This document shows positions 1,363-28,741 of a stretch of 33,618 bases of DNA, piece after piece. Made by a program: the position numbers and the translations under genes. The notes beneath the pieces were generated by a model. That model worked only from the letters and a program-made list of their open reading frames with translations. It searched no databases and was not told where the DNA came from. This stretch comes from Methylococcaceae bacterium. Its GTDB lineage: Bacteria > Pseudomonadota > Gammaproteobacteria > Methylococcales > Methylomonadaceae. Each line of letters begins with the position of its first letter. The stretch's first letter is position 1. The stretch covers positions 1-33,618 of the forward strand of contig OMIH01000075.1 of assembly GCA_900299045.1 (NCBI GenBank), written 5' to 3'.

Positions 1363-1379
1363 GACTCTATAACACCCAC

Positions 1380-1407
1380 AAAAAAGGACGCCAAAGCGTC
1401 CTTTTTT
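1380..1407. terminator. Bidirectional rho-independent terminator between convergent hsdR and the minus-strand operon
   Basis: 12-bp perfect inverted repeat AAAAAAGGACGC-CAAA-GCGTCCTTTTTT with A-tract and T-tract flanks. Confidence 0.85.
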
Positions 1408-1429: not shown

Positions 1430-2125
1430 TTAATAATTCAAAAACAAATTCACCGATAAAATATGATCTTGACGATCTGGGGCGTTGGCTTTGCGAATAT
1501 ATTGATTCATATAGCCCACTTCGGTTTTGATATTTTGATTGAAATTGTAACCAACCCCTGCAAAAGCACGGTTTTGATCAAAACCGTCATCCGCACCATA
1601 ATTGGTTTTATTGATGTTGGCGAAGTATTCGTCTGAAGCCACTAAACTAAAATCATAAGCAACCGGCACAGAGGCTTTAAACATTTGTCTAAAACGCCAA
1701 CCTACATCACTGCCCGTTTGCATAAAACGCTGTTCAAAACGACTGCGGCTTGTCACTGTCACGCCAGCAAATTTATCGCTCCAAAGCACTTGCTGCCAAA
1801 TACGATGTTCGTCGAATTCTTTTTTTGCAAAGGGTTCATCTGTTGGCACAAATGCGTAACCTAACCATACGCTGACTTTTTCAGCCACAGCGTAACCCAA
1901 ACCGGCACGAAGCATACCTTGAGAAACTTGCGAGGTATCATTACCAAAACGCCCCTGCCCTTCAAGCCAATATTTCATTTTTTGCAAATCGGGACTGATA
2001 ATACCTAAACTGCCCGTTGCGGTAACGTTTCCCCACGTTTGAAAATCTTCTACTGTTTTGGCGTGTCCGACGCAAGGCATCAGCATACTTGCCAATAAAA
2101 CCGTATTGAGCATTTTCTTTTTCAT
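1430..2125 (-). CDS. DUF2490-type outer-membrane beta-barrel protein, last gene of the SulP/Hyf-like operon
   Basis: Signal peptide MKKKMLNTVLLASMLMPCVGHA; repeated amphipathic beta-strand pattern (WLEGQGRFGND, RSRFEQRF, WRFRQMFKASVP, FAGVGYNFNQNIKTEVGYMNQY) ending in an aromatic residue (FLNY). The start is more likely at 2125 (MKKK) than at 2185. Confidence 0.7.
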   Translation of the reverse strand: MKKKMLNTVLLASMLMPCVGHAKTVEDFQTWGNVTATGSLGIISPDLQKMKYWLEGQGRFGNDTSQVSQGMLRAGLGYAVAEKVSVWLGYAFVPTDEPFAKKEFDEHRIWQQVLWSDKFAGVTVTSRSRFEQRFMQTGSDVGWRFRQMFKASVPVAYDFSLVASDEYFANINKTNYGADDGFDQNRAFAGVGYNFNQNIKTEVGYMNQYIRKANAPDRQDHILSVNLFLNY

Positions 2126-2127
2126 TT

Positions 2128-2637
2128 TTATTTTTCCATCAACGTTAATAAACTCTTGAGTAAAACAAGAGGGGTTGGTGGGCAACCATTAATTGTCATA
2201 TCAACAGGAATGACATTGCTCACTGCCCCACATGAAGCATAAGACGTGCCAAACTCACCACCACAACTTGCACAATCACCCATCGCAATGACCCATTTAG
2301 GATCAGGCGTTGCATCATAAGTGCGAAGTAGCGCGGTTTGCATGTGACGTGATACCACTCCCGTGACGAGTAAAATATCTGCATGACGCGGTGATGCGAC
2401 AAAATGAATACCAAAACGCTCCACATCATAAAAGGGATTATTGAGCGCATGAATCTCAAGCTCACAACCATTGCACGATCCCGCATCAACTTGCCGAATC
2501 GCTAAACTGCCCGAAAATTGCTTATCAATACGACGCTTGATTTCAATGCCAAGCGTGGCTAATTCTTCATCATAAGCCGCTTTGTATGTTTCGGTGACAA
2601 TACCGGTGGTTACAATCTTTTTAAATATATCAAGCAT
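2128..2637 (-). CDS. NuoB/HycG/HyfI-like [4Fe-4S] small subunit of a hydrogenase-related complex
   Basis: GSCNGCELE ... AMGDCASCGGEFG ... INGCPPTP cysteine pattern typical of the NuoB/HyfI family. Confidence 0.9.
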   Translation of the reverse strand: MLDIFKKIVTTGIVTETYKAAYDEELATLGIEIKRRIDKQFSGSLAIRQVDAGSCNGCELEIHALNNPFYDVERFGIHFVASPRHADILLVTGVVSRHMQTALLRTYDATPDPKWVIAMGDCASCGGEFGTSYASCGAVSNVIPVDMTINGCPPTPLVLLKSLLTLMEK

Positions 2638-2647
2638 TTATGCCACC

Positions 2648-4228
2648 CTAGAGATCACTACCAGAATAGGAACAATTAAACGATTTATTGCACACAGGAA
2701 AATCAGGCACGATATTATTTAATACCGCTTTTTCAAGCGGTTCCCAATTGAATTGACTTGGATCGCGTGGATAAAAACGCGAAACAGCATTGTTTCGACC
2801 AAATTCCACATACGTCATAATTTCACCGCGCCACCCTTCGACAATTCCCAAACCAAAACGGCCGTTGTCTGGAATGACCCATGACGCAAGCAAATCCCCT
2901 TCAGGCAATAACTCTAATTGAGCGATAAATTGCTCAATTAATTTGAGTGACGCATTGATTTCTTTATAGCGCACCCAAAAACGCGAAGCAATATCCCCTT
3001 GCGTTTCAATCGGCACTTTTACTTTGACGTTTTCATACGGTGCATAAGGCGCATCACGACGTACGTCAAAATCTTGCCCACTCGCCCGCCCAATAAAACC
3101 GAGTGTGCCAAATAATTCGGCTGTTTGCGGCGACAAATAACCGGCTGTATAAATACGGTCTTCCAGTGAGGAACTTAAATCCATAGCTGGAATCAGTTGC
3201 GCTAATTCCACGCGCAATTCGTTAATTTCAATTAGTATAAATTTACCTGCTACATCATTGATATCAACATTGACACCACCTGCAACGATTTTATCCATTA
3301 AAAAACGATGTCCAAACAATTCATAATTTGTACGACACCACAGCTCTTTAAGTCGCATCATCTGCATAAAAGCAAATGTAAACGCCACATCATTACAAAT
3401 CGCGCCAATATCGCCAAGATGATTCGCAATCCGCTCACGCTCGGCAAAAATGCCGCGAATTAACGTCGCGCGTCGTGGAATATGAATGCCTGCTGCTTGC
3501 TCCATTGCCATGCAAGCCGCCCATGTGTGTGCTACTGTGGTATCTCCCGACACACGCCCAGCTAGTTTTGCAAGACCTTCAGGAGTGCGACCTTCTGCAA
3601 TTTTTTCAATACCTTTATGTACATAACCAAGCCGCTCTTCTAAGTTTAAAATCAACTCACCAACGGCTTGAAAACGAAAATGCCCTGGTTCGATAATCCC
3701 CGCATGAACGGGTCCAACTGGAATTTCATAAACGCCTATGCCATGCGCCTCTACAAAGTGATAGCTGGTATCGGGTGGCGTTATCTCAGCAGGTGCGCCA
3801 GTAACAGGAAAATCATGGCGAAGTGGGTATTCATGTCGCCTCCACGCTTGATGACGTGTCCAGCCACGCGAATCGGGATGTTGCAAAAACTCAATGCCAA
3901 ATAAATCATGCGTATGGCGTTCACTGCGATTTGCCGCCGCATAAACCGTTGCTTGCGAAGGGAGTTGCGGTTTTGACCCGTTAATAGTCGTGCGAAATAA
4001 AAGATAAGTCCCTTTTCGCTCAAAACACGCATGAACATGAAATTGTTCACCGCTTTGGACAGCAAAACCCGCTGCCCAGCGCAACTGATTTGCGTTAGCT
4101 ATTTGGGCGAGTTGCTGCCAATGCGTATCATCGATTTGATACAATTCAATATGAGGTGACATTTCCGTTGATTTAACAAAAATATCCGCGTCAACAATTT
4201 GTTGCAGAAAAGTTAGTTTCCAACTCAC
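2648..4228 (-). CDS. NuoC-NuoD fused (HycE/HyfG-like) large subunit lacking the canonical [NiFe] CxxC motifs
   Basis: NuoC-like ERHTHDLFGIEFLQHPD...EYPLRHDFP, then NuoD/HyfG-like IPVGPVHAGIIEPGHFRFQ...LEERLGYVHKGIEK. The L1 position reads RVSGDTTVAHTWA and the C-terminus reads FNCSYSGSDL. Confidence 0.9.
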   Translation of the reverse strand: MSWKLTFLQQIVDADIFVKSTEMSPHIELYQIDDTHWQQLAQIANANQLRWAAGFAVQSGEQFHVHACFERKGTYLLFRTTINGSKPQLPSQATVYAAANRSERHTHDLFGIEFLQHPDSRGWTRHQAWRRHEYPLRHDFPVTGAPAEITPPDTSYHFVEAHGIGVYEIPVGPVHAGIIEPGHFRFQAVGELILNLEERLGYVHKGIEKIAEGRTPEGLAKLAGRVSGDTTVAHTWAACMAMEQAAGIHIPRRATLIRGIFAERERIANHLGDIGAICNDVAFTFAFMQMMRLKELWCRTNYELFGHRFLMDKIVAGGVNVDINDVAGKFILIEINELRVELAQLIPAMDLSSSLEDRIYTAGYLSPQTAELFGTLGFIGRASGQDFDVRRDAPYAPYENVKVKVPIETQGDIASRFWVRYKEINASLKLIEQFIAQLELLPEGDLLASWVIPDNGRFGLGIVEGWRGEIMTYVEFGRNNAVSRFYPRDPSQFNWEPLEKAVLNNIVPDFPVCNKSFNCSYSGSDL

Positions 4229-5685
4229 AACGCACTCCCCGAAATCAATAAAGTCGCTTGGCTAAACCAGCTGCTTAAAAAACTGGGTATCGCAATCCCA
4301 AGCCATAATGCCAAGCCTAAATGCACCATGATAGGCATTAAATTTGCATTGATAGCTGTTTTATCTTCAGGTTTAGCGCCATAGACCATTGGCTGAACAT
4401 GTCGGAATAATCCCGCAAAGGCAATACCGATGCCGAGTAATAAAAAGGGCGTTAACCATGGATATTCGTGCATGGTAGCCAAAAATACTAAAAACTCGCT
4501 CGTAAAAACACCAAACGGTGGAAAACCTGCAATAGCTAACGTACCAACCAGCAATCCCCAGCCAACTTTAGGTTGTGTTTTCATGAGCCCTCGAATGCCT
4601 GTCATTTTTTGCGTCCCTGAAATTTGCGACGCATGACCCACTGTGACAAAAATAGCCGATTTCACGAGTGAATGAACCGTCATGTGTAAAAGTCCGGCAA
4701 ACGTTGCAAGTGAGCCACCTATGCCAAACGCAAAGGTCATCAGTCCTATATGTTCAATTGACGAATAACTAAACAAACGCTTAATATCTTTTTGCCGATG
4801 CAGAAATAATACCGCCACCAAAAAAGACACCAAACCAAAACCCATCATCAAATAACCCGCGATATGGGTTTGTGTTGCGCCATCAATGAGCATTTTATTG
4901 CGAATGACCGCATACAGTGCGTCATTAAGCAGTAAGCCCGATAATACAGCAGACATCGGTGTCGGTCCTTCAGAGTGCGCATCGGGTAGCCAATTATGGA
5001 GAGGAACCAATCCCATTTTTGTACCATAACCAATCAGCAAAAAGACAAATGCAATTTCTAAAATATCGGGATTGAGCTCAGTAGCGTGTTCGTGGAGAAC
5101 AGACCAAAGCAACGCATTGTCACTACCTCCAATTTGTGAGGCAGCGTAATACAGCAAAATAGTTCCAAATAACGCCTGAGCGATTCCCACACCACATAAA
5201 ATAAAATATTTCCATGCCGCTTCAATAGATTCAGGTGTGCGATACAAACTGACAAGTAAAACAGTCGTCAATGTAGCCCCTTCCATTGCCACCCACATGA
5301 TACCCATGTTATTTGTAGTCAATACCAAGTACATGGCGAGCATAAAACCTTGATACATGGAGTAATAGAGTTTTAATCGTGCTTGCGTGAGTTTACCCAG
5401 TTCGATTTCGTGTGCCATATAGGCTTCTGAAAAAAGTGACGTCGTAAACCCAACAAACGCGGTTAAAACAATTAAATAGACATTGAATGAATCAATCAAA
5501 AACGCTTTGCCACTTGATAGCAGCGTGCCTTGATTAAAAACGGTCATTGCTAAGATGATGGTAATAACCAAACTCACGCCATTGATACGCGTATTGAATT
5601 TACCCATATTTTCTTTGTGTCCGCTTAAAGCAAAAAAGACAATACTCGCTGCAGAAAGGAGTAATAAAGAATAAACCGCAATCAT
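4225..5685 (-). CDS. HyfF-like / NuoN-M-type antiporter-like membrane subunit
   Basis: Multi-TM protein with AMEGATLTTVLLVSL, GTKMGLVPLHNWLPDAHSEGPTPMSAVLSG and HSLVKSAIFVTVGHAS; 4-nt overlaps with both neighbours. Confidence 0.9.
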   Translation of the reverse strand: MIAVYSLLLLSAASIVFFALSGHKENMGKFNTRINGVSLVITIILAMTVFNQGTLLSSGKAFLIDSFNVYLIVLTAFVGFTTSLFSEAYMAHEIELGKLTQARLKLYYSMYQGFMLAMYLVLTTNNMGIMWVAMEGATLTTVLLVSLYRTPESIEAAWKYFILCGVGIAQALFGTILLYYAASQIGGSDNALLWSVLHEHATELNPDILEIAFVFLLIGYGTKMGLVPLHNWLPDAHSEGPTPMSAVLSGLLLNDALYAVIRNKMLIDGATQTHIAGYLMMGFGLVSFLVAVLFLHRQKDIKRLFSYSSIEHIGLMTFAFGIGGSLATFAGLLHMTVHSLVKSAIFVTVGHASQISGTQKMTGIRGLMKTQPKVGWGLLVGTLAIAGFPPFGVFTSEFLVFLATMHEYPWLTPFLLLGIGIAFAGLFRHVQPMVYGAKPEDKTAINANLMPIMVHLGLALWLGIAIPSFLSSWFSQATLLISGSAL

Positions 5686-6359
5686 TTGTCCACCTCATGT
5701 AATTTATTCATCAAATCCACATCGAGCGAATCGATACTGATGCGAATATGCAAAAAGAAAATACCAAATAAAATCGCCGCAACCAGCACGTCAAAAGCGA
5801 CGCCAAGCTCAACAACCATAGGCATGCCATTCGTCGCCACAATGGCGGCAAAAAATAATCCGTTTTCAATCGACATAAAACCGACCACGTGGGCAACCGC
5901 TTGACGATGTGAAATCATCAAAAGCAAGCCAAGTAGAACAACCGACAAACTCACCGCTAACGCGTTGAGCATAATCATGGATGACGTATGAATAATGGGC
6001 TGCAGAACGTAATAGCTAAATACCATTAAACTCGCCCCACCTAGCATGACAGCAGTATTATTTTTGAGCGCCTCCACGTCACGGTGCATATTCATTTCCA
6101 GCACCTGTTTTTGCAACATCCATGGAATAAATATGACTTTCAATGAAAAGGTTAATACCGCTGAAATATACAAATGCGGATTATCCAAGCTATATGCAGA
6201 AAGTCCGGTTGTCAGCGTTAATAGCAAACCTTGCAGTGCAAACACAAAAATCAGTCGCAATAAGCGACCTTGCCCAAGCATTAAAAACGATGTCAATCCC
6301 ACGAGCGCAGACATCGATAAAATCGCTTGCGTGTAAAAATCTTGTGATTCGATATTCAT
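5682..6359 (-). CDS. HyfE-like membrane subunit (NuoK-like)
   Basis: 225 aa multi-TM protein with SIENGLFFAAIVATNGMPMVVELGVAFDVLVAAILFGIFFLHI, typical of HyfE; located between the HyfF-like and HyfC-like genes. Confidence 0.85.
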   Translation of the reverse strand: MNIESQDFYTQAILSMSALVGLTSFLMLGQGRLLRLIFVFALQGLLLTLTTGLSAYSLDNPHLYISAVLTFSLKVIFIPWMLQKQVLEMNMHRDVEALKNNTAVMLGGASLMVFSYYVLQPIIHTSSMIMLNALAVSLSVVLLGLLLMISHRQAVAHVVGFMSIENGLFFAAIVATNGMPMVVELGVAFDVLVAAILFGIFFLHIRISIDSLDVDLMNKLHEVDK

Positions 6360-7300
6360 CGCGTTGACTCCAAAATGATATGACTCAGCATACCGAGAAC
6401 GCCTAGTAAATAAGCAAATCCCAGATATTCTTGCACGCGAAATAAGCGCATTTTTGCCACAGCCGTTTCAGCTAACGCCAAGAAAATACAGAGAAAAACA
6501 AGTTTACCTAAAATGGCTAATAGTCCATATCCCAGTGCAGATAACGTAAAACTTTCAGCAATCCCCCAAGGAAAGAAAATATTGGAAATTAACACACCAT
6601 AAAGCATCAATTTCAGTGCGCTTGCCCATTCAATTAAGGCTAAATGGCGACCGCTGTATTCTAAAATCATCGCTTCATGAATCATCGTAAGCTCTAAATG
6701 CGTGGTCGGGTTATCAACAGGAATCCGCCCCGTTTCAGCCATCGTCACCAAAATCAATGCAAATAACGCAAATACAAAAGACGGACGTAAAATAAGCCCT
6801 TCCTGCAACACATGCTCAATAGCGCCTGATAGATTTGTCGTTGAGGCTGTCATGGTTAGGGTAAAAACTGCCATCAGCATAGCCGGTTCAGCAAGCGAGG
6901 AAATCGTCATCTCACGCGAAGAACCCATCCCGCCAAATGCCGTACCAATATCCAGTCCAGCTAAAGCAAGAAAGAAACGCGCAAAAGCAAAAAAACCAAC
7001 TAATACAATCACATCGGCTTCCGCTGAGGTTGGCTGGTCAACAGCAATAAACGGAACCACCGATGCCGCTAAAATCATTGCGGTGAAAATAAGATACGGT
7101 GCCACGCAAAAGAGCCATGATGCCTCTTGTGAAATCACCGGTTGTTTATACGTTAATTTGAGTAAATCACGATAAGGTTGCAAAAATGACGGTGCACGAC
7201 GATTTTGCAGCCAACATTTACAAAATTTAAGAAATCCCATCAACAGCGGGGAAAGTGCCACAAATAAAGCCGTTTGAACCACTGCCATTAACCCATTCAT
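6356..7300 (-). CDS. HyfC/HycD/NuoH-like membrane subunit
   Basis: QNRRAPSFLQPYRDLLKL ... ETGRIPVDNPTTHLELTMIHEAMILEYSGRHLALIEWAS. Start MNGLM at 7300 gives a TGATG overlap with the upstream gene; the alternative start is 7315. Confidence 0.92.
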   Translation of the reverse strand: MNGLMAVVQTALFVALSPLLMGFLKFCKCWLQNRRAPSFLQPYRDLLKLTYKQPVISQEASWLFCVAPYLIFTAMILAASVVPFIAVDQPTSAEADVIVLVGFFAFARFFLALAGLDIGTAFGGMGSSREMTISSLAEPAMLMAVFTLTMTASTTNLSGAIEHVLQEGLILRPSFVFALFALILVTMAETGRIPVDNPTTHLELTMIHEAMILEYSGRHLALIEWASALKLMLYGVLISNIFFPWGIAESFTLSALGYGLLAILGKLVFLCIFLALAETAVAKMRLFRVQEYLGFAYLLGVLGMLSHIILESTR

Positions 7301-9321
7301 CAGCTCACCACCCATAAAAGTAAAATTAACGTCGCGAGCGAATACCCTAAATACGTCCGAATATTCCCTGTTTGAATCCGTCCGACTTGTTTAGCAACGC
7401 GATTCACACCATGCTCAACGGGTTGATAAAGATGAATCCAACTATGATCTTGAATATGTAAGCTATAGCGAACTTGCTCAACGTTTGTTTGCGTGTGGCT
7501 GCGCATCGTTTTTTCAATCGTTTCTTCAATCAAAAAAGCCGGTGAAAAAATACGACGCAGTGGCATGGTGAACGCACTTGAGGTGTATTGCATACGCGGT
7601 GTTAATCCACCAAAACCACAATCCCACGTAGGCGCAATACGAACAGACGTTTTCAACTTTCTATGTAAAACCCAAAAGCAAACACCTGCTGCCATTAACG
7701 CGCCAACGAGAATCAGTGGAGGCGAATAAGACGCTTGTTGCGCTGACAGCGGTGCAATGGAAAAGAAGGACAAGACCGATTGGGCTGGTAAATTTGAGCC
7801 AATTAACTGTTTAGCAACGTTATCAATTAAATGCAGAATAGAACTTGGAAAAATACCAAAAAAGAAACAGAATCCCGCGAGCATCGCAGGCGCTGCCAGC
7901 ATACTTTTGTCGTTAATTTCTTTGGCTTTCTCTGCGTGACGTGAACGAGGTACACCTAAAAAAGTTAATCCAAAAACATTCACAAAACACGCTGCCGCTA
8001 AAGCAGCAGTTAACGCCAAGGCAGCTGCAGACACGGGAATTAAACTACGCAATACGCCATTATCCAGTACATCAACACGCAATGCCGTTTGAAACGCAAG
8101 CCACTCCGAAACAAACCCATTAAAAAGTGGCAACGAGGAAATACTCATGCAGCCAATCAAAAATAAGAAACTTGTTTTAGGCATTCGCTTGATTAACCCA
8201 CCCAGCATATCAATGTTTAGTTCATGTGTCTGATGATGGATAATGCCGGCTCCTAAGAATAATAAATTCTTAAATAATGCGTGATTAAACGCGTGAAGCA
8301 AAGCGGCAAGTAAACCGAGTGCAGCGAGTTCGGGATAATTATTTGCCAAAAAAATCATACTCAGTCCTAGCACCATCACAATGATGCCAATATTTTCAAC
8401 CGAGCTATAAGCCAGCAAACGTTTCAAATTTTGTTGCATCATGGCATATAAAATACCGCTGACCGCTGACAGCGTGCCGATAACCATCAACACCACGCCC
8501 CACTCCCAATGCACTTCAGGGAGCAAATCAAAACAAAACCGAATCAAACCATAAATTGCCACTTTGAGCATGACTCCGCTCATTAACGCAGAAATATGTG
8601 AAGGCGCAACAGGATGCGCTTCGGGTAGCCAAACGTGAATTGGCACAAGACCCGCTTTCATGCCAAAGCCCATTAGCGCGAGAATAAACGCAACGCTCAT
8701 CCACATGGTTGATAAATGCGACGCTCGCAGCGCATCAAACGTGAAGTCACTCGCAAAACTAGCCATGACGCCAAACGCTAAAATAATCAATAACGCGCCC
8801 ACTTCCGCCATCAGCAAATAGAGAAAAGCAGCTCGACGATTAGCCGAATTTTCATGATCAAACGCCACAAGAAAATAACTCGCTACCGACATTAATTCCC
8901 ATGCAATCATAAACATAAACGCATCATCAGCGAGTAAAACCAGCAACATGCCGCCAATAAATACCCCTGTAAATAAACTCAGCACAGCAAACCCTTGCGC
9001 GTCTTTTTGCATAGCGTGCGTGTAATGTGGTGCGTAAAAGCTAATCGAAAAAACAGCAATACCAATAATGAGATAAAACAACGCTGATAAACTATCAAAA
9101 TGGATATGCCAAGGCAGCCATGGCAATCCTAAATTGAGCGTATCTAAATACGTCTGTGAAGTGATAAGTCCACCCACGCCCGCAAGAATCGCTGCAAACC
9201 CTGATAAACCAAGTAACCAAAATACCCATTGTTGATGTACTTCAGGCTTAAACACATGCACTAGCGCAATGCTACCTGACGCAAAACTGAATATGACCGC
9301 GCTATAGGCGAGAAATAACAT
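7300..9321 (-). CDS. HyfB-like / NuoL-type antiporter-like membrane subunit
   Basis: AWELMSVASYFLVAFDHE, GMKAGLVPIHVWLPEAHPVAPSHISALMSGVMLK, HALFKNLLFLGAG; C-terminal extension with WDCGFGGLTPRMQYTSSAFTMPLRRIF as in HyfB. Confidence 0.92.
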   Translation of the reverse strand: MLFLAYSAVIFSFASGSIALVHVFKPEVHQQWVFWLLGLSGFAAILAGVGGLITSQTYLDTLNLGLPWLPWHIHFDSLSALFYLIIGIAVFSISFYAPHYTHAMQKDAQGFAVLSLFTGVFIGGMLLVLLADDAFMFMIAWELMSVASYFLVAFDHENSANRRAAFLYLLMAEVGALLIILAFGVMASFASDFTFDALRASHLSTMWMSVAFILALMGFGMKAGLVPIHVWLPEAHPVAPSHISALMSGVMLKVAIYGLIRFCFDLLPEVHWEWGVVLMVIGTLSAVSGILYAMMQQNLKRLLAYSSVENIGIIVMVLGLSMIFLANNYPELAALGLLAALLHAFNHALFKNLLFLGAGIIHHQTHELNIDMLGGLIKRMPKTSFLFLIGCMSISSLPLFNGFVSEWLAFQTALRVDVLDNGVLRSLIPVSAAALALTAALAAACFVNVFGLTFLGVPRSRHAEKAKEINDKSMLAAPAMLAGFCFFFGIFPSSILHLIDNVAKQLIGSNLPAQSVLSFFSIAPLSAQQASYSPPLILVGALMAAGVCFWVLHRKLKTSVRIAPTWDCGFGGLTPRMQYTSSAFTMPLRRIFSPAFLIEETIEKTMRSHTQTNVEQVRYSLHIQDHSWIHLYQPVEHGVNRVAKQVGRIQTGNIRTYLGYSLATLILLLWVVS

Positions 9322-9323
9322 CG

Positions 9324-10979
9324 TTAGTTTGCCTCAATGATTTTAAGACGACGAGCCGCGAGAGGATGCGTTGAAAATGCCTCATGACGCTCTAAACCAA
9401 TAAACTCACAGTAACCACCTTGTGATTCGTAATCATGTTGAAACTCATGAAAAAATTCCATGACCGTGTGGTCAATTAATGTGACTTCACTTTCATCAAA
9501 AATTAACGTTTTTCCTTTTTCGATTTCACCTAACATTTCTTTTAAAACAAGGAAATTTGAAAAAAGCGCGGCACCTTGAATTTTAATTAAAAGCGAACCA
9601 TCGGATTGCAATTCTTGGGTGAAATGTATTTTAAATAAATTATTAAGTTTGGCACCGTGCAGCACATGGATACACAATTTCACTACAATACCAATCGCCA
9701 CACCAATCAGTAAATCTGTGGCAATCACACTGATAATGGTGACAACAAAAATAAATAATTGCTCTTTGCCAATTCCCATCACATTAGCAAATTCACGCGG
9801 TGAAGCAAGGCGAAAGCCAGTAAAAACAAGCAATGATGCAAGTGCCGCTAACGGAATGCTATGAATTAAACGAGGAAAGAAAACGACAAATAATAATAAA
9901 AAAGCGCCATGAAAAAAATTCGCCCAACTGGTTTTCGCGCCGTTATTTACGTTTGCACTACTCCGCACAATTTCGGCAATCATGGGCAATCCACCAATAG
10001 AGCCCGCCACTAAATTACCTACGCCAACGGCTGTTAAATCTTTATTCAAATTACTGTGGCGTTGATAAGGATCCAATTTATCAACTGCCATCGCACTGAG
10101 CAAACTTTCTAAACTTCCCACCAGTGCAATCGCAATAACCGCCTCCCAAAATTCACTCGTCGCTATTTTTGAAAAATCAGGAAAATGAAAACTGGAGGCA
10201 AAATTATCTGAAATGGCGACTAAAAATCGGGGACCGACTGTTTCTTCATGGCGAGCCAGAAAATGCGCATCGGGCAAAAATAAATATAAATGTTCGTGAT
10301 TTAAATCAAAAAAAGCACCAAAACCAATTCCCACTAACACTACAATTAACGGGGCTGGAATCATTTTTAGAAATTTGTTTTTGAGCTGTGACCAAATAAT
10401 TAAAATCGTCAATCCCATACCACCAATAATGGCAATTTCAGGATTCAAATTCATAAAACTGTTTGGAATTTGCCCAATGGTCGAAAACAAACTGCCCTTT
10501 TCAGGCGTCACGCCGAGTACAACGTGGATTTGCTTTGCCATGATGATAATGCCAATAGCCGCAAGCATGCCATGTACCACTGACGCGGGGAAGAAAGAAC
10601 TCAATCGCCCCGCTTTAAATACCCCCATTAAAATTTGAATCACACTTGCCACAACAATAGCGGCTAAAGTATAACGATAACCCGCCATCGCATCACCGTC
10701 ACCTAGCGACTGAACCGCATCTAATACAACAACAATTAAGCCCGCAGCAGGACCATTAATCGTAATAAATGAACCACTACAGCGTGATACAACAAGTCCA
10801 CCAATAATGGCGGTGATAATCCCCGCTGAGGGCGGAAACCCCGACGCCATCGAAATACCAAGACAAAGAGGCAGTGCAATCAGAAAAACCAAAAAACCCG
10901 ATAACAAATCACCACGCCAGTGCGCCAGCAGTCCAGCTAAACCTGTTTTAGGAATCTCTACTGTCATTTCGTTTATCAT
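9324..10979 (-). CDS. SulP-family inorganic anion transporter with C-terminal STAS domain
   Basis: DLLSGFLVFLIALPLCLGISMASGFPPSAGIITAIIGGLVVSRCSGSFITINGPAAGL (SulP signature) and a C-terminal STAS segment KTLIFDESEVTLIDHTVMEFFHEF; 2-nt gap to the HyfB-like gene. Confidence 0.92.
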   Translation of the reverse strand: MINEMTVEIPKTGLAGLLAHWRGDLLSGFLVFLIALPLCLGISMASGFPPSAGIITAIIGGLVVSRCSGSFITINGPAAGLIVVVLDAVQSLGDGDAMAGYRYTLAAIVVASVIQILMGVFKAGRLSSFFPASVVHGMLAAIGIIIMAKQIHVVLGVTPEKGSLFSTIGQIPNSFMNLNPEIAIIGGMGLTILIIWSQLKNKFLKMIPAPLIVVLVGIGFGAFFDLNHEHLYLFLPDAHFLARHEETVGPRFLVAISDNFASSFHFPDFSKIATSEFWEAVIAIALVGSLESLLSAMAVDKLDPYQRHSNLNKDLTAVGVGNLVAGSIGGLPMIAEIVRSSANVNNGAKTSWANFFHGAFLLLFVVFFPRLIHSIPLAALASLLVFTGFRLASPREFANVMGIGKEQLFIFVVTIISVIATDLLIGVAIGIVVKLCIHVLHGAKLNNLFKIHFTQELQSDGSLLIKIQGAALFSNFLVLKEMLGEIEKGKTLIFDESEVTLIDHTVMEFFHEFQHDYESQGGYCEFIGLERHEAFSTHPLAARRLKIIEAN

Positions 10980-12347: not shown

Positions 12348-13347
12348 CGGGTTGTTCTTTTATATTAAACTCATGCTTTTCGGGTTTGATTGCCATGGCA
12401 TCAATAATGGCCTGTTTGATGGTGTCTGAGGTGGCATTAGGTAAACGAATCATCGTTTTTAAATCAATGGAATGTTCATTGCCTAAACATAAAAGCAAAC
12501 GCCCCTCAACCGTCAAACGGACACGATTGCAAGTGGAACAAAAATTATGGCTATGCGGTGAAATAAATCCCACCTGTGTCTGCGTATTGGGAATATGATA
12601 ATAATCAGAAGGTCCACCTGTTTTTTGTGGACTGGGTATCAGCGTAAAGCGTTTGGCTAAATCGGCTCGAATGACATCACTAGAATAATAGGCTTCAGCG
12701 CGATCATGCTTGCCAACAACACCGAGCGGCATTTCTTCAATAAAACTAATATCAATTTGTTTATCAATGGCAAATTGAACTAAATCAATAACTTCATCAT
12801 GGTTACGATTTTTTAAAATCACGGCATTTAACTTAATTCGCTCAAAACCTGTATGTCTTGCCGCATCAATACCGTCAAGTACTTGTTGCAAATTACCCGT
12901 GCGTGTAATCGATTTAAATTTTTGTGAATCAAGCGTATCTAAACTGATATTAATGCGCTTGACGTTCGCCACTTTTAGAATAGGCGCGGTCGCCAGCAAT
13001 TGAGAGCCGTTAGTTGTCATCACTAATTCACGAAGACCTGCTAACGCGCCAATTTTTTGCAATAACTCCAGCGCACCTTTGCGAACCAGCGGCTCTCCTC
13101 CGGTAATACGAATTTTAGTCACGCCCAGTTCAACAAAGATGCTCGCAAGTAAATAAATTTCTTCAAGACTAAGTATTTCATCACGCGGTAAAAACGTCAT
13201 TTCTTCCGCCATGCAATAAACACAGCGAAAATCACACCTATCCGTAATCGAGATGCGCAGATAATCAACCGTTCGCCCAAAGCGATCGATAAGCCTTTTT
13301 GGAAATCGTGTTGTCGTCACGACATCCTCACTCGACAGAAAATTCAC
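12313..13347 (-). CDS. moaA: GTP 3',8-cyclase, molybdenum cofactor biosynthesis protein A
   Basis: Radical SAM motif [20 protein letters not shown]-terminal Fe-S motif [11 protein letters not shown]...LLLCLG, and the conserved terminal GG (NMTGG). Confidence 0.95.
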
Positions 13348-14968
13348 GCATCATACCCATATCTTCATGTTCTAAATTATGGCAATGATATAAAAATAAG
13401 CCTTTGAAATCGTGGAACGGTTTAATAATTTTAACGCGCTCCATAGGCATCACAAGCACCGTATCTTTCAAACCACTATCAATAAATCCTTCACTAACAG
13501 TGTCATAATCCGTCGTATCGCCTGAAATGCTACGACTCATAATTTCAAACTGTTGCCCATGTAAATGAATCGGATGCGCCATAGACACATTCATGCCTCC
13601 CATACCCATTCCACCCCCCATTCGCATCTCACTATGCGCATGAAAAATTTCAAGAAGTTGAACGCTACCCATTTTGACACGCTCTGAGGGGAGCGGATTA
13701 TTAAATTCATAAGCACGCCCATTGAGTAGCATTGACATGGGGGATTCTGAAATAGCAATCGGCAATGGATTATTAGGATTTGCGGTTTCATTTATGCCGT
13801 AGCGGTGAATTTTCGCGAGTTTAGTGGGTAACTTATGACTATCACTCACTTTTCGCGTAACGTTTATGGTGCAAATGGGATATTCGCTACCCACAGACAA
13901 GCCACCATGATTCATTCCCATTCTTGGACTAACACCAGAGAAGGCTAAACTTTTAAGTGTTAATTGCGCCCCTTCATTGCGAGCACTAAAATCTGCCCAC
14001 ACGTCAAGACGCTCACCGGGTGCGAGCATAACATACGGCTTGATTTCAGGTTGTTCAAGTAAACCGCCATCAACACCGATAACTGTCATTGGCATCCCAT
14101 CGTCCCAAGCAAGTTTATAAATGCGCGACGTTGAGCCATTCATGACACGCAAACGGTACGCTCTACTTGCAACATCTAAATGAAAATTGGCTTGCCCGTT
14201 AACCAGAATCGTGTTGCCTACCATGCCCGACATACGCTGGTGCATATTGGGTGAGTACACTAACTGATTCTCGTTATCAAATTGCTTATCTTGAATAACC
14301 AGCGGAATTTCATATTCACCAGATGGCAATTCCAACGCCGCTTCTTCCTCGTCATTGACAATCACAGCGCCTGCCAGTCCTAAATAGACTTGTTTAGCGG
14401 TTGCTCCGTGAGGATGAGGATGGTACATATTCATATTGGCACGGTTTATCACTTCAAATTCATACACAAGCGTTTGACCGCTTTCGATGGCATATTGTGG
14501 ATGACCGTCCATCATTTGAGGTACATGCAGACCATGCCAATGCACAACACTGGATTGTGATAGCGCATTATGAAAATTCACGCGAACTTTCTGCCCTTTT
14601 TGTAAGCGAATAATCGACCCAAGATAAGAATGCGGGATATCCACTACGGTTTCTTTAGGCCCTTTAATGAGTGTTGCTTGATAACGCAACACCTTTGTCG
14701 GCGTCCCTTTTAAAATTGATACCTCCGTAGGCGTGCAGACTAAATCGAGCTCAACATCTGGATGAAAATTTGGATTCGATTTATTTGGCGTTAATTTAGG
14801 GTAGCTGACCTCACTGCCCATTGAGCTGTGCATTCCCCCCATGCCCATACCTACGCCCATTCGCATACTTTCCATCGCATGGGCAAAATGCGGCAAACCG
14901 GTCAAGGAAACCAGTCCTAAACTCGACTGAGTCAAAAAACGACGACGTGATTGATTAAATTTAGCCAT
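13328..14968 (-). CDS. Tat-exported multicopper oxidase (CueO/CotA-like) with two Met-rich segments
   Basis: Twin-arginine signal [26 protein letters not shown]; copper motifs [38 protein letters not shown]. Confidence 0.93.
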
Positions 14969-26401: not shown

Positions 26402-28741
26402 TTAAAACACATTACTGTAACTATTACGAACATCTTTCAACTCAATGGCAAGTTCACGACGTAACTGAAAATCGCGACGTGTATGTGCAATGTTATAAGG
26501 AATTAGTGGATTGCGTTCGTATTTGACAGCAGTGCGAATAATGCCAATCCACTGACGATCATTATCTTCCATCTCTTTAAATCGATTGCGAATACGCTCT
26601 AATTCCTGATTGCAATAAGTAATAAAACCTGCTGCATAGAACACACTGTTTTTTAAATAATCCTGCAGTGCGGCTAAATCGCCATTGATTTCATTCACCA
26701 CTTGATCAAAATTGCTCGGCTCAGGGGATCTTTCAATATCTTTTGCTGGTGGCGCCACGGCTTCTGATAAGACCGCATCAACCACTGCCTTTGCTGTATT
26801 GCGTGAGCGCCCTGCTGGAACAGTTTTATTGATGGTTGCCCACAAACCATAACGTAAATAATGCGTCAACCCGCCCTCTTGCTTCGCCTTATCCGTACCT
26901 TGATAAAACGCTTCTAGCGTTTTAATTTCAGCCGCACGTTCGCTAAGTAAACGATCTCGCGCTTGTAGTGGTTTTGCGATAAATGCTTCAACCGCAACAC
27001 GCCCAAAACGCAGAAATAACACTTGAAATCCGTGGCGAATACGGGCTTGCTCAATGCTTTCATCTAAATGAGAATGCAGTAAATTACGACGTACGTCCTC
27101 GGTTTCCCAAAGTAGTGTTTGTGTCTTGCTAACAATTTGATCAATTAACGCCTGTAGCGCTTGCGCGAGTTGATCGGTTAATTCCGTTTCAAATTTCTTC
27201 TGGATTTCACGAAACAATTCTTCACGAATTTTATAATTCCCTTCACGCGAATCCGGCATCGAGATTGTCCCACCTGCCGTATAAATACGTTTCAACTCAT
27301 CAGGTTGAGCCGTAATTAAATTGGAAAGTAGCGCTTCAATTTTTTGGTCATACGCTAAACGCAATGCCGCCAACTCTTCATGTTCAGCGCCCAATGCGTC
27401 AGCTTCTTTGCGCCCTTGAATGCTCTGCGCATACCACACATCAAAATCTTTCTTAATACGTTGCCATTCACGTCCCCACCATTGGTTAAACTCTTTGCCA
27501 AGCAAATCATCTTCTTGACGGTCATTTTCTGCGACCGTGCCATAAATTGGCTCAAGTTTCCCTAAAATATCTGTGGCTAATTGACGTGTATTGTGTACTA
27601 ACGAATCACAGCGTTTTTGCAAAACGCCTGAGCGTTCATTATCAATATAAAAATTCACAGCATCTTTTAGCGCATTCATGCCATCGGGAATGCCTAATTT
27701 TTTGAGTTTATTTTTATCATCGGCGCTTTTAGAACGTCGTTGCGTATCCTCAGTTGGAATGCCGAATTCAACTAAGTGCGACCGCGCACAAACGGGTAAT
27801 AATCTTCGCTCTGGCACTGAAGGCCAAAACGTTTTGTGTTTTGCTAATGTATCACGAAAATCAATTTGGTCGTCCATCGCATCGGCTTGTGTTAATACGA
27901 CAAACACTTTATCCGACACGCGCAAGCTAGGATCTTCCGCATCTGCCACCAATAACATCTCTTTTTCAGGTCCCGTAATTGACGGCTGTTTCATTTCTTT
28001 AGCGTAAATAATGGCATCACAATTACGCAAACGATCAATCGCTTGCTCTGCGTGCATTACAATGCCTGAATTAAACCCTGGAACATCATGGAAAATAATG
28101 TCACGATCACTACGCAGACGCACTGTTTTTAATTGAATACGTTTAATGGCAAGCGACTGAGCACGATTTTTAAAAATAGCCGATTGCAGTAAATCGCTAA
28201 TTTCACCAATATCTAAGAAACTTTGTTTAAACCCATTTTTGAGCTTAGTAAATTCATAAATGGCATTGAGATTTTTTTCTGTATCGTTGTAATCTTCTTG
28301 AATTTCTTTCTTTTCTTTATCACTAAGTAACTTTCCAGCTAATGCAAGTTGACGCTGTTGTTGCAATGTGCCAATTTCTTCTCGACTGTAATATTGAATG
28401 GAGAGCAGTTGATCTTGCTCGGTTTGTGCAGACCAAATTTCTGTACTCGTAAACGTACAACGCTCGCGTGCTGACGGTAAAATCTCTTGCCCAAGCCACG
28501 CATTGAGAAGCGCACTTTTACCTGCTTTTTCAAGTCCAATCACAGCAACTTCAAAACGATTTGCCCGTAAACGCTCAAGTTGACGATTTAGACGTGCGTG
28601 TTCAATTTCAAGTTTTTGCTGCATTTCAGGCGATATATCAACACCCGTTTTATTACTTAACGTAATAAGTTTATCTGATAACACCGAGGTTTTTTCTAAG
28701 CGCGTGAGTTGTTTTGCACAAGTTTCTAGCCAAGTTGCCAT
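26402..28741 (-). CDS. Dynamin-like / dynamin-family large GTPase
   Basis: P-loop VAVIGLEKAGKSALLNAWLG, switch region CTFTSTEI, G3 DVPGF, degenerate G4 LTQAD; long helical C-terminal region; 779 aa. Confidence 0.8.
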   Translation of the reverse strand: MATWLETCAKQLTRLEKTSVLSDKLITLSNKTGVDISPEMQQKLEIEHARLNRQLERLRANRFEVAVIGLEKAGKSALLNAWLGQEILPSARERCTFTSTEIWSAQTEQDQLLSIQYYSREEIGTLQQQRQLALAGKLLSDKEKKEIQEDYNDTEKNLNAIYEFTKLKNGFKQSFLDIGEISDLLQSAIFKNRAQSLAIKRIQLKTVRLRSDRDIIFHDVPGFNSGIVMHAEQAIDRLRNCDAIIYAKEMKQPSITGPEKEMLLVADAEDPSLRVSDKVFVVLTQADAMDDQIDFRDTLAKHKTFWPSVPERRLLPVCARSHLVEFGIPTEDTQRRSKSADDKNKLKKLGIPDGMNALKDAVNFYIDNERSGVLQKRCDSLVHNTRQLATDILGKLEPIYGTVAENDRQEDDLLGKEFNQWWGREWQRIKKDFDVWYAQSIQGRKEADALGAEHEELAALRLAYDQKIEALLSNLITAQPDELKRIYTAGGTISMPDSREGNYKIREELFREIQKKFETELTDQLAQALQALIDQIVSKTQTLLWETEDVRRNLLHSHLDESIEQARIRHGFQVLFLRFGRVAVEAFIAKPLQARDRLLSERAAEIKTLEAFYQGTDKAKQEGGLTHYLRYGLWATINKTVPAGRSRNTAKAVVDAVLSEAVAPPAKDIERSPEPSNFDQVVNEINGDLAALQDYLKNSVFYAAGFITYCNQELERIRNRFKEMEDNDRQWIGIIRTAVKYERNPLIPYNIAHTRRDFQLRRELAIELKDVRNSYSNVF

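Follow-up and report, generated by a model that had tools for sequence, protein, structure and literature searches.

In Methylococcales, a single operon slot beside one clade of SulP anion transporters holds either HyfBCEFGI or DabA-DabB, and the transporter has switched between these partners repeatedly. HyfBCEFGI is assigned here, on sequence grounds, to the energy-converting-hydrogenase-related (Ehr) complexes, which have been described as of unknown function (PMC10284858), while DabAB is a CO2-hydrating complex driven by the proton motive force (PMF) (PMC13144422). We read the SulP-Ehr operon as one version of a Methylococcales inorganic-carbon acquisition locus, at a probability of about 0.52: SulP would import HCO3−, a DUF2490 protein would serve as a pore, and accumulation of CO2 or HCO3− would be coupled to the Ehr complex. 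None of the protein families is new; what appears to be new is the connection of Ehr to SulP and to DabAB, as neither an Ehr-SulP nor an Ehr-Dab link was found in the open-access literature searched.

A tight eight-gene operon in a methanotroph genome

The window, i.e. the whole stretch of 33,618 nt that was analysed, is contig C75 of a 2.1-Mb genome that is 97% complete (G000; genomes are labelled G, loci L, and c27 and c16 denote flanking genes). In a homology search, the nearest named loci to its HyfG were those of Methylobacter and other Methylococcales (65–68%), and we class the genome as Methylococcales-type (methanotroph). The operon runs on the minus strand from 10979 to 1430 in the order SulP, HyfB, HyfC, HyfE, HyfF, HyfG, HyfI, DUF2490:

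9324..10979, minus: SulP anion transporter, 551 aa, weak STAS domain, first gene of the operon (PF00916, 225.8 bits)
7300..9321, minus: HyfB-like antiporter-type pump subunit, 673 aa (NF005086, 794 bits, above cut-off)
6356..7300, minus: HyfC/NuoH-like membrane arm subunit (PF00146, 132 bits)
5682..6359, minus: HyfE-like small membrane subunit (NF008556, 77.5 bits, below the cut-off of 136)
4225..5685, minus: HyfF-like antiporter-type pump subunit, 486 aa (NF005045, 758 bits, above cut-off)
2648..4228, minus: HyfG-like NuoC+NuoD fusion, hydrogenase-derived, without NiFe ligands, 526 aa (PF00329, PF00346 and PF00374)
2128..2637, minus: HyfI/NuoB-like small subunit with four conserved cysteines (PF01058)
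1430..2125, minus: DUF2490 putative outer-membrane beta-barrel with signal peptide (PF10677, 198 bits)
about 1379..1406, minus: intrinsic terminator hairpin closing the operon (predicted fold)

All junctions are gaps or overlaps of at most 10 nt: gaps of 2 nt at SulP/HyfB and at HyfI/DUF2490 (DUF2490 ATG at 2125) and of 10 nt at HyfG/HyfI, a 1-nt TGATG overlap at HyfB/HyfC, and 4-nt overlaps at HyfC/HyfE, HyfE/HyfF and HyfF/HyfG. Promoter-like sites across the operon region show no excess (20 versus 22.1 in shuffles), the predicted terminator after DUF2490 folds with −26 kcal/mol over 66 nt (z −4.7), and upstream the operon is bounded by a divergent bioF. The eight genes form a single operon, and the array, families, coordinates and junctions given in a preliminary description of this DNA are confirmed. 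The same description had called SulP genetically fused to the complex; the separate ORFs rule out a gene fusion, and the relation is co-operonic instead. None of the eight genes encodes DabA (PF10070).

Elsewhere in the window, we noted by eye the 3′ part of a helicase-like, type I restriction HsdR-like gene with a cysteine-rich repeat run, cut by the contig end (101-1240, plus strand), a multicopper-oxidase-like protein with Met/Gly-rich stretches adjoining moaA (13328-14968, minus strand), and a large dynamin-like GTPase with nadC-like and thioredoxin-like genes on either side (26402-28741, minus strand).

The SulP-Ehr order recurs across Methylococcales and is separable

The order SulP-HyfBCEFGI, often followed by DUF2490 and then by a histidine kinase and a sigma-54 response regulator, occurs in many genera of Methylococcales. 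HyfG is present in 127 of 258 Methylococcales genomes (39 of 48 genera). In at least 50 of the 258, a window-clade SulP is found no more than 12 kb from HyfG, a lower bound among the matches listed and uncorrected for shared ancestry. The pairing is therefore not a peculiarity of this genome, which the preliminary description had named as a finding that would refute it, and since the order recurs in many genera we take the arrangement to reflect more than chance.

The layout varies around this theme. Three loci read SulP-HyfBCEFGI-DUF2490-kinase-regulator (L088, L097, L223), and another continues from DUF2490 through DUF347, c27 and c16 to the kinase (L021). SulP sits inside the operon, between HyfF and HyfG, in Methylocaldum and in G071 (L107, L234); it is present as a tandem pair in L031, L097 and L225 and stands divergent to the Hyf operon in L038 and L039. 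Two loci (L022, 1183-3269; L030) carry genes for an Lcl_C-domain protein and a CxxCH-containing exported protein between DUF2490 and DUF347.

The claimed coupling of SulP to the complex holds as a genetic link across the order, but not as an obligatory one. Three genomes (G010, G011, G012) have the operon in two parts, HyfFGI and SulP-HyfBCE, and SulP-DUF2490 occurs without the complex in L175, L219 and L220. A close relative of the window (L180, G013) shows an internal deletion from hyfB to mid-hyfI, possibly a misassembly; there, a frame-broken 3′ hyfI remnant (934-1248) lies between intact SulP (91%) and DUF2490 (92%). Outside Methylococcales, most Ehr loci have neither SulP nor Dab within 10 kb. 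Among L126 (11598-13600), L094 (6279 onward) and L283 (3730-5490), a different SulP is found between HyfG and HyfI in a Geobacteraceae genome, possibly an independent SulP-Ehr association, and yet another directly upstream of HyfF in Thiomargarita-like loci.

DabA-DabB exchanges with the Ehr complex in the same slot

In relatives, the position of HyfBCEFGI is taken by DabA-DabB. SulP-DabA-DabB-DUF2490 occurs in L167, L168 and L206, followed by DUF347-c27-kinase in L168 and by kinase-regulator in L206; L171 reads SulP-DabA-DabB-DUF347-c27-kinase, and divergent SulP/Dab versions include L169, L170, L208, L209, L211 and L212, among others. The flanking genes are orthologous between Hyf- and Dab-type loci, with identities of 53–82% for the kinase, 78% for the regulator, 73–76% for DUF347 and 74–84% for DUF2490 (34% in L167). 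Both modules share one array, SulP-SulP-HyfBCEFGI-DabA-DabB-DUF2490, in G225 (L203, 1053-17950), and L204 reads HyfBCEFGI-DabA-DabB.

Among the matches listed, a window-clade SulP lies within 6 kb of a short DabA in at least 31 of the 258 Methylococcales genomes (again a lower bound, with shared ancestry uncorrected). Hyf and Dab modules occur together in 28 genomes, fewer than the 41.8 expected (odds ratio 0.37, p = 3e-4; 258 genomes, kinship uncorrected). In the SulP tree, Dab-linked copies are scattered among Hyf-linked ones, with nine label changes, at least six of them forced by strongly supported branches, and at least eight Hyf/Dab switches; L180 carries the label Hyf in this tree solely from its hyfI remnant.

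Because DabA-DabB fills the same slot in relatives and once shares its array, the inorganic-carbon function guessed at in the preliminary description gains support, and the Ehr complex probably helps the cell take in CO2 or bicarbonate. One could instead suppose that SulP, Ehr and DabAB merely belong to one stress or pH/ion-homeostasis regulon with no functional coupling, given that the two-component system and DUF2490 are common to many versions and that SulP and DUF2490 persist where Hyf is missing or decayed (L175, L219, L220; L180). We consider this improbable: repeated partner exchange at one slot, and a SulP gene placed within the operon itself (L107, L234), point to something beyond shared regulation.

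The window genome itself holds a separate Dab-type locus, in which DabA is apparently split over two contig ends (C61, 15277-17265, and C156, 1-1538; L186 and L187) and has several NuoM/NuoL-like neighbours.

HyfG has lost its NiFe ligands and has a new, conserved pocket

The best solved relative of HyfG is HycE of the E. coli formate hydrogenlyase (7z0s, 302 bits), compared with 180 bits for membrane-bound hydrogenase and 175 bits for complex I. The HycE NiFe ligands C241, C244, C531 and C534 align with HyfG S227, T230, S520 and G523. We followed these positions in 179 HyfG homologues from Methylococcales, other Gamma- and Betaproteobacteria, Alphaproteobacteria, Nitrospirae, Zetaproteobacteria and Desulfuromonadales-type genomes: serine is found at S227 in 171, serine or threonine at T230 in 169, serine at S520 in 171 and glycine at G523 in 178. 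Cysteine occurs in none of the 179 at S227, S520 or G523 and in three at T230. With both CxxC-type NiFe motifs absent, an active Group 4 [NiFe] hydrogenase is ruled out; C513, which by eye had seemed a candidate NiFe cysteine, is excluded by the HycE alignment, which places S520 and G523 there. The same homologues show little or no variation at D229, D280 and H183 and along most of the tail DFPVCNKSxNxSYSGxD; E180 is likewise invariant or nearly so. From these residues and the near-invariant substitutes, we conclude that the pocket has been remodelled rather than decayed. Around the pocket, the AlphaFold model of HyfG is poor, and no geometry was taken from it.

The pump subunits keep their key residues, with HyfB E142, K222, K253 and E406 retained in more than 90% of 122 sequences and HyfF E135, K223 and E397 in more than 90% of 170. 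HyfI C55, C58, C122 and C152, presumed ligands of the proximal 4Fe-4S cluster, are invariant in an alignment of ten sequences that includes non-methanotrophs. No genes for HyfA, HyfD, HyfH or formate dehydrogenase are present in the operon. In a by-eye alignment, the position of the complex I quinone tyrosine (Tyr87 of Thermus Nqo4) appears to correspond to HyfG Gly228. The Ehr-like character proposed earlier is borne out by the lost NiFe cysteines and the antiporter-like HyfB and HyfF encoded alongside; to speak of a full proton-pumping module was an overstatement, as the operon lacks both the NiFe site and HyfA and HyfH, through which electrons usually enter.

Because HyfA/HyfH and the quinone tyrosine (in the by-eye alignment) are absent, we find it fairly likely that ion coupling, rather than net electron transfer, is the main mode of action of the complex; a hint of electron transfer comes from the invariant cysteines of HyfI. 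Since these cysteines are kept, the main rival reading is a redox-driven proton pump, its donor perhaps formate- or ferredoxin-linked, which would generate a local PMF that SulP spends on anion uptake or pH control. Redox-coupled pumping has been suspected for Ehr complexes (PMC6349859), and the HyfB/HyfF pump residues are intact, unlike DabB2, which lacks ion-pair motifs (PMC13144422). A pump of this kind is nonetheless unlikely in view of the missing HyfA, HyfH and formate dehydrogenase genes, the absent NiFe ligands and the glycine at the presumed quinone position.

Putative roles of SulP and DUF2490 in anion uptake

In SulP, the STAS domain scores 21.0 bits, just under the cut-off of 22.6. 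The nearest SulP profile is DauA-like, and scores stay far below all NCBIfam cut-offs, including that of the curated BicA profile (133.7 bits, cut-off 880). The best solved match is BicA (6ki1), and E291 aligns with its sodium-site aspartate (D258); a glutamate is also found in SLC26Dg. Membership of the BicA family is ruled out by the profile score and by E291, and the better DauA score counts against the carbon reading. In Methylococcus, a SulP gene shares its operon with a beta-carbonic anhydrase (CA) gene, and overexpression of that CA raised CO2 assimilation (PMC11423575). In the window genome, contig C147 (L200, 850-4634) carries a SulP gene and a SulP-beta-carbonic-anhydrase fusion in tandem, likely another bicarbonate system.

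For DUF2490, the AlphaFold2 model is all-beta with 11 strands (pLDDT 86), and its top Foldseek matches are mostly bacterial porins (OmpC, OmpT, Omp32, NanC, OmpG), all with E values above 0.001. The family (TC 1.B.81) has been listed among putative porins (PMC4827864).

RuBisCO and sulfur genes near the operon

Co-occurrence with RuBisCO fails in the window's family and holds in other lineages. RuBisCO was found in 0 of 37 genomes of the family, and PEP carboxylase had no match in the window genome; both observations weigh against the carbon reading. Across the class, RuBisCO is present in 22 of 29 genomes with a close HyfG versus 161 of 341 others (p = 0.003; kinship uncorrected, and the close-HyfG split was chosen after scores were seen). 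When all HyfG-like matches are taken, there is little association (25/47 versus 158/323), so that the enrichment is confined to the close clade. In Thiomonas (L159), hyfBCEFGI is followed by the form II RuBisCO gene cbbM 0.3 kb past HyfI, a VWA (cbbO-like) gene and LysR; in L285, an Iso_dh gene separates HyfB from a LysR-cbbM pair located 1.7 kb upstream; and L274 has form I rbcL and a cbbX-like AAA gene 6 kb off on the opposite strand. A window-clade SulP lies 3.4 kb after RuBisCO in L174.

Sulfur genes are found near SulP as well. In Methylococcus-like loci (L196-L198), a distance of 1.4–1.7 kb separates a window-clade SulP from cysB, with cysH and gshA in the same region, and in L181 SulP-HyfBCE adjoins a CysB-like/CysA-like pair. 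Together with the SulP family name, this would fit an importer of sulfate or another oxyanion, with the operon serving sulfur assimilation and the Dab link secondary. However, these contexts are two local cases, L196 and L198 also have a carbon-locus-type kinase or regulator close by, and DabAB contexts in at least 31 genomes, together with the array shared with Hyf, make a sulfate role quite unlikely.

Proposed function and comparison with known systems

For the inorganic-carbon locus that we favour, neighbours and conserved residues suggest the following steps. The putative DUF2490 pore would let anions through the outer membrane, feeding SulP, which would most likely be a proton-coupled HCO3− importer with glutamate in place of the BicA sodium-site aspartate. 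The Ehr complex would couple the passage of protons through HyfB and HyfF to CO2/HCO3− accumulation, with the new HyfG pocket doing the chemistry; from the same slot, it may work alongside DabAB, a PMF-driven vectorial carbonic anhydrase, or substitute for it. A stronger version, which we hold to be doubtful, is that Ehr is a hydrogenase-derived machine that uses an ion gradient to hydrate CO2 or to accumulate bicarbonate. It would then stand as a third kind beside DabAB/MpsAB and cyanobacterial NDH-1MS, with the former NiFe pocket of HyfG (D229, D280, E180, H183 and the tail) now a CO2/HCO3− site.

The slot exchange with a CO2-uptake pump, the joint array and some RuBisCO neighbours provide a concrete function hypothesis for the orphan Ehr complexes, which may add a new inorganic-carbon uptake route in methanotrophs and autotrophs. 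If this is true in RuBisCO-free methanotrophs, it raises the question of why such a cell would invest in carbon concentration.

The operon shares with E. coli hydrogenase-4 and formate hydrogenlyase (Hyf, Hyc) homologues of HyfB, C, E, F, G and I, but has no HyfA, HyfD or HyfH and has lost all four NiFe cysteines. With BicA and CA-linked SulP bicarbonate transporters it has in common the SulP family and the 6ki1 match, whereas its SulP is DauA-like by profile with glutamate at the sodium site, and no CA gene is present. Cyanobacterial NDH-1MS is a complex I-type machine recruited for CO2 hydration; by comparison, the operon has no extra CO2-hydrating subunit, and its head is hydrogenase-type, not NDH-type. 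Described Ehr complexes likewise consist of Group 4 hydrogenase/complex I-like subunits without NiFe-binding cysteine motifs (PMC10284858, PMC6349859), as in Acidithiobacillus ferrooxidans, where hyfBCEFGI has a non-hydrogenase catalytic subunit (PMC7735108); here, the operon additionally holds SulP and DUF2490, and the complex swaps with or adjoins DabAB. With DabA-DabB (DAC/DAB2, MpsAB-like), finally, it shares the slot, the SulP clade, the regulators, the barrel and PF00361 pump subunits, but HyfG and HyfI differ in family from the beta-CA-like DabA, and the pump residues are intact where DabB2 lacks its ion-pair motifs (PMC13144422).
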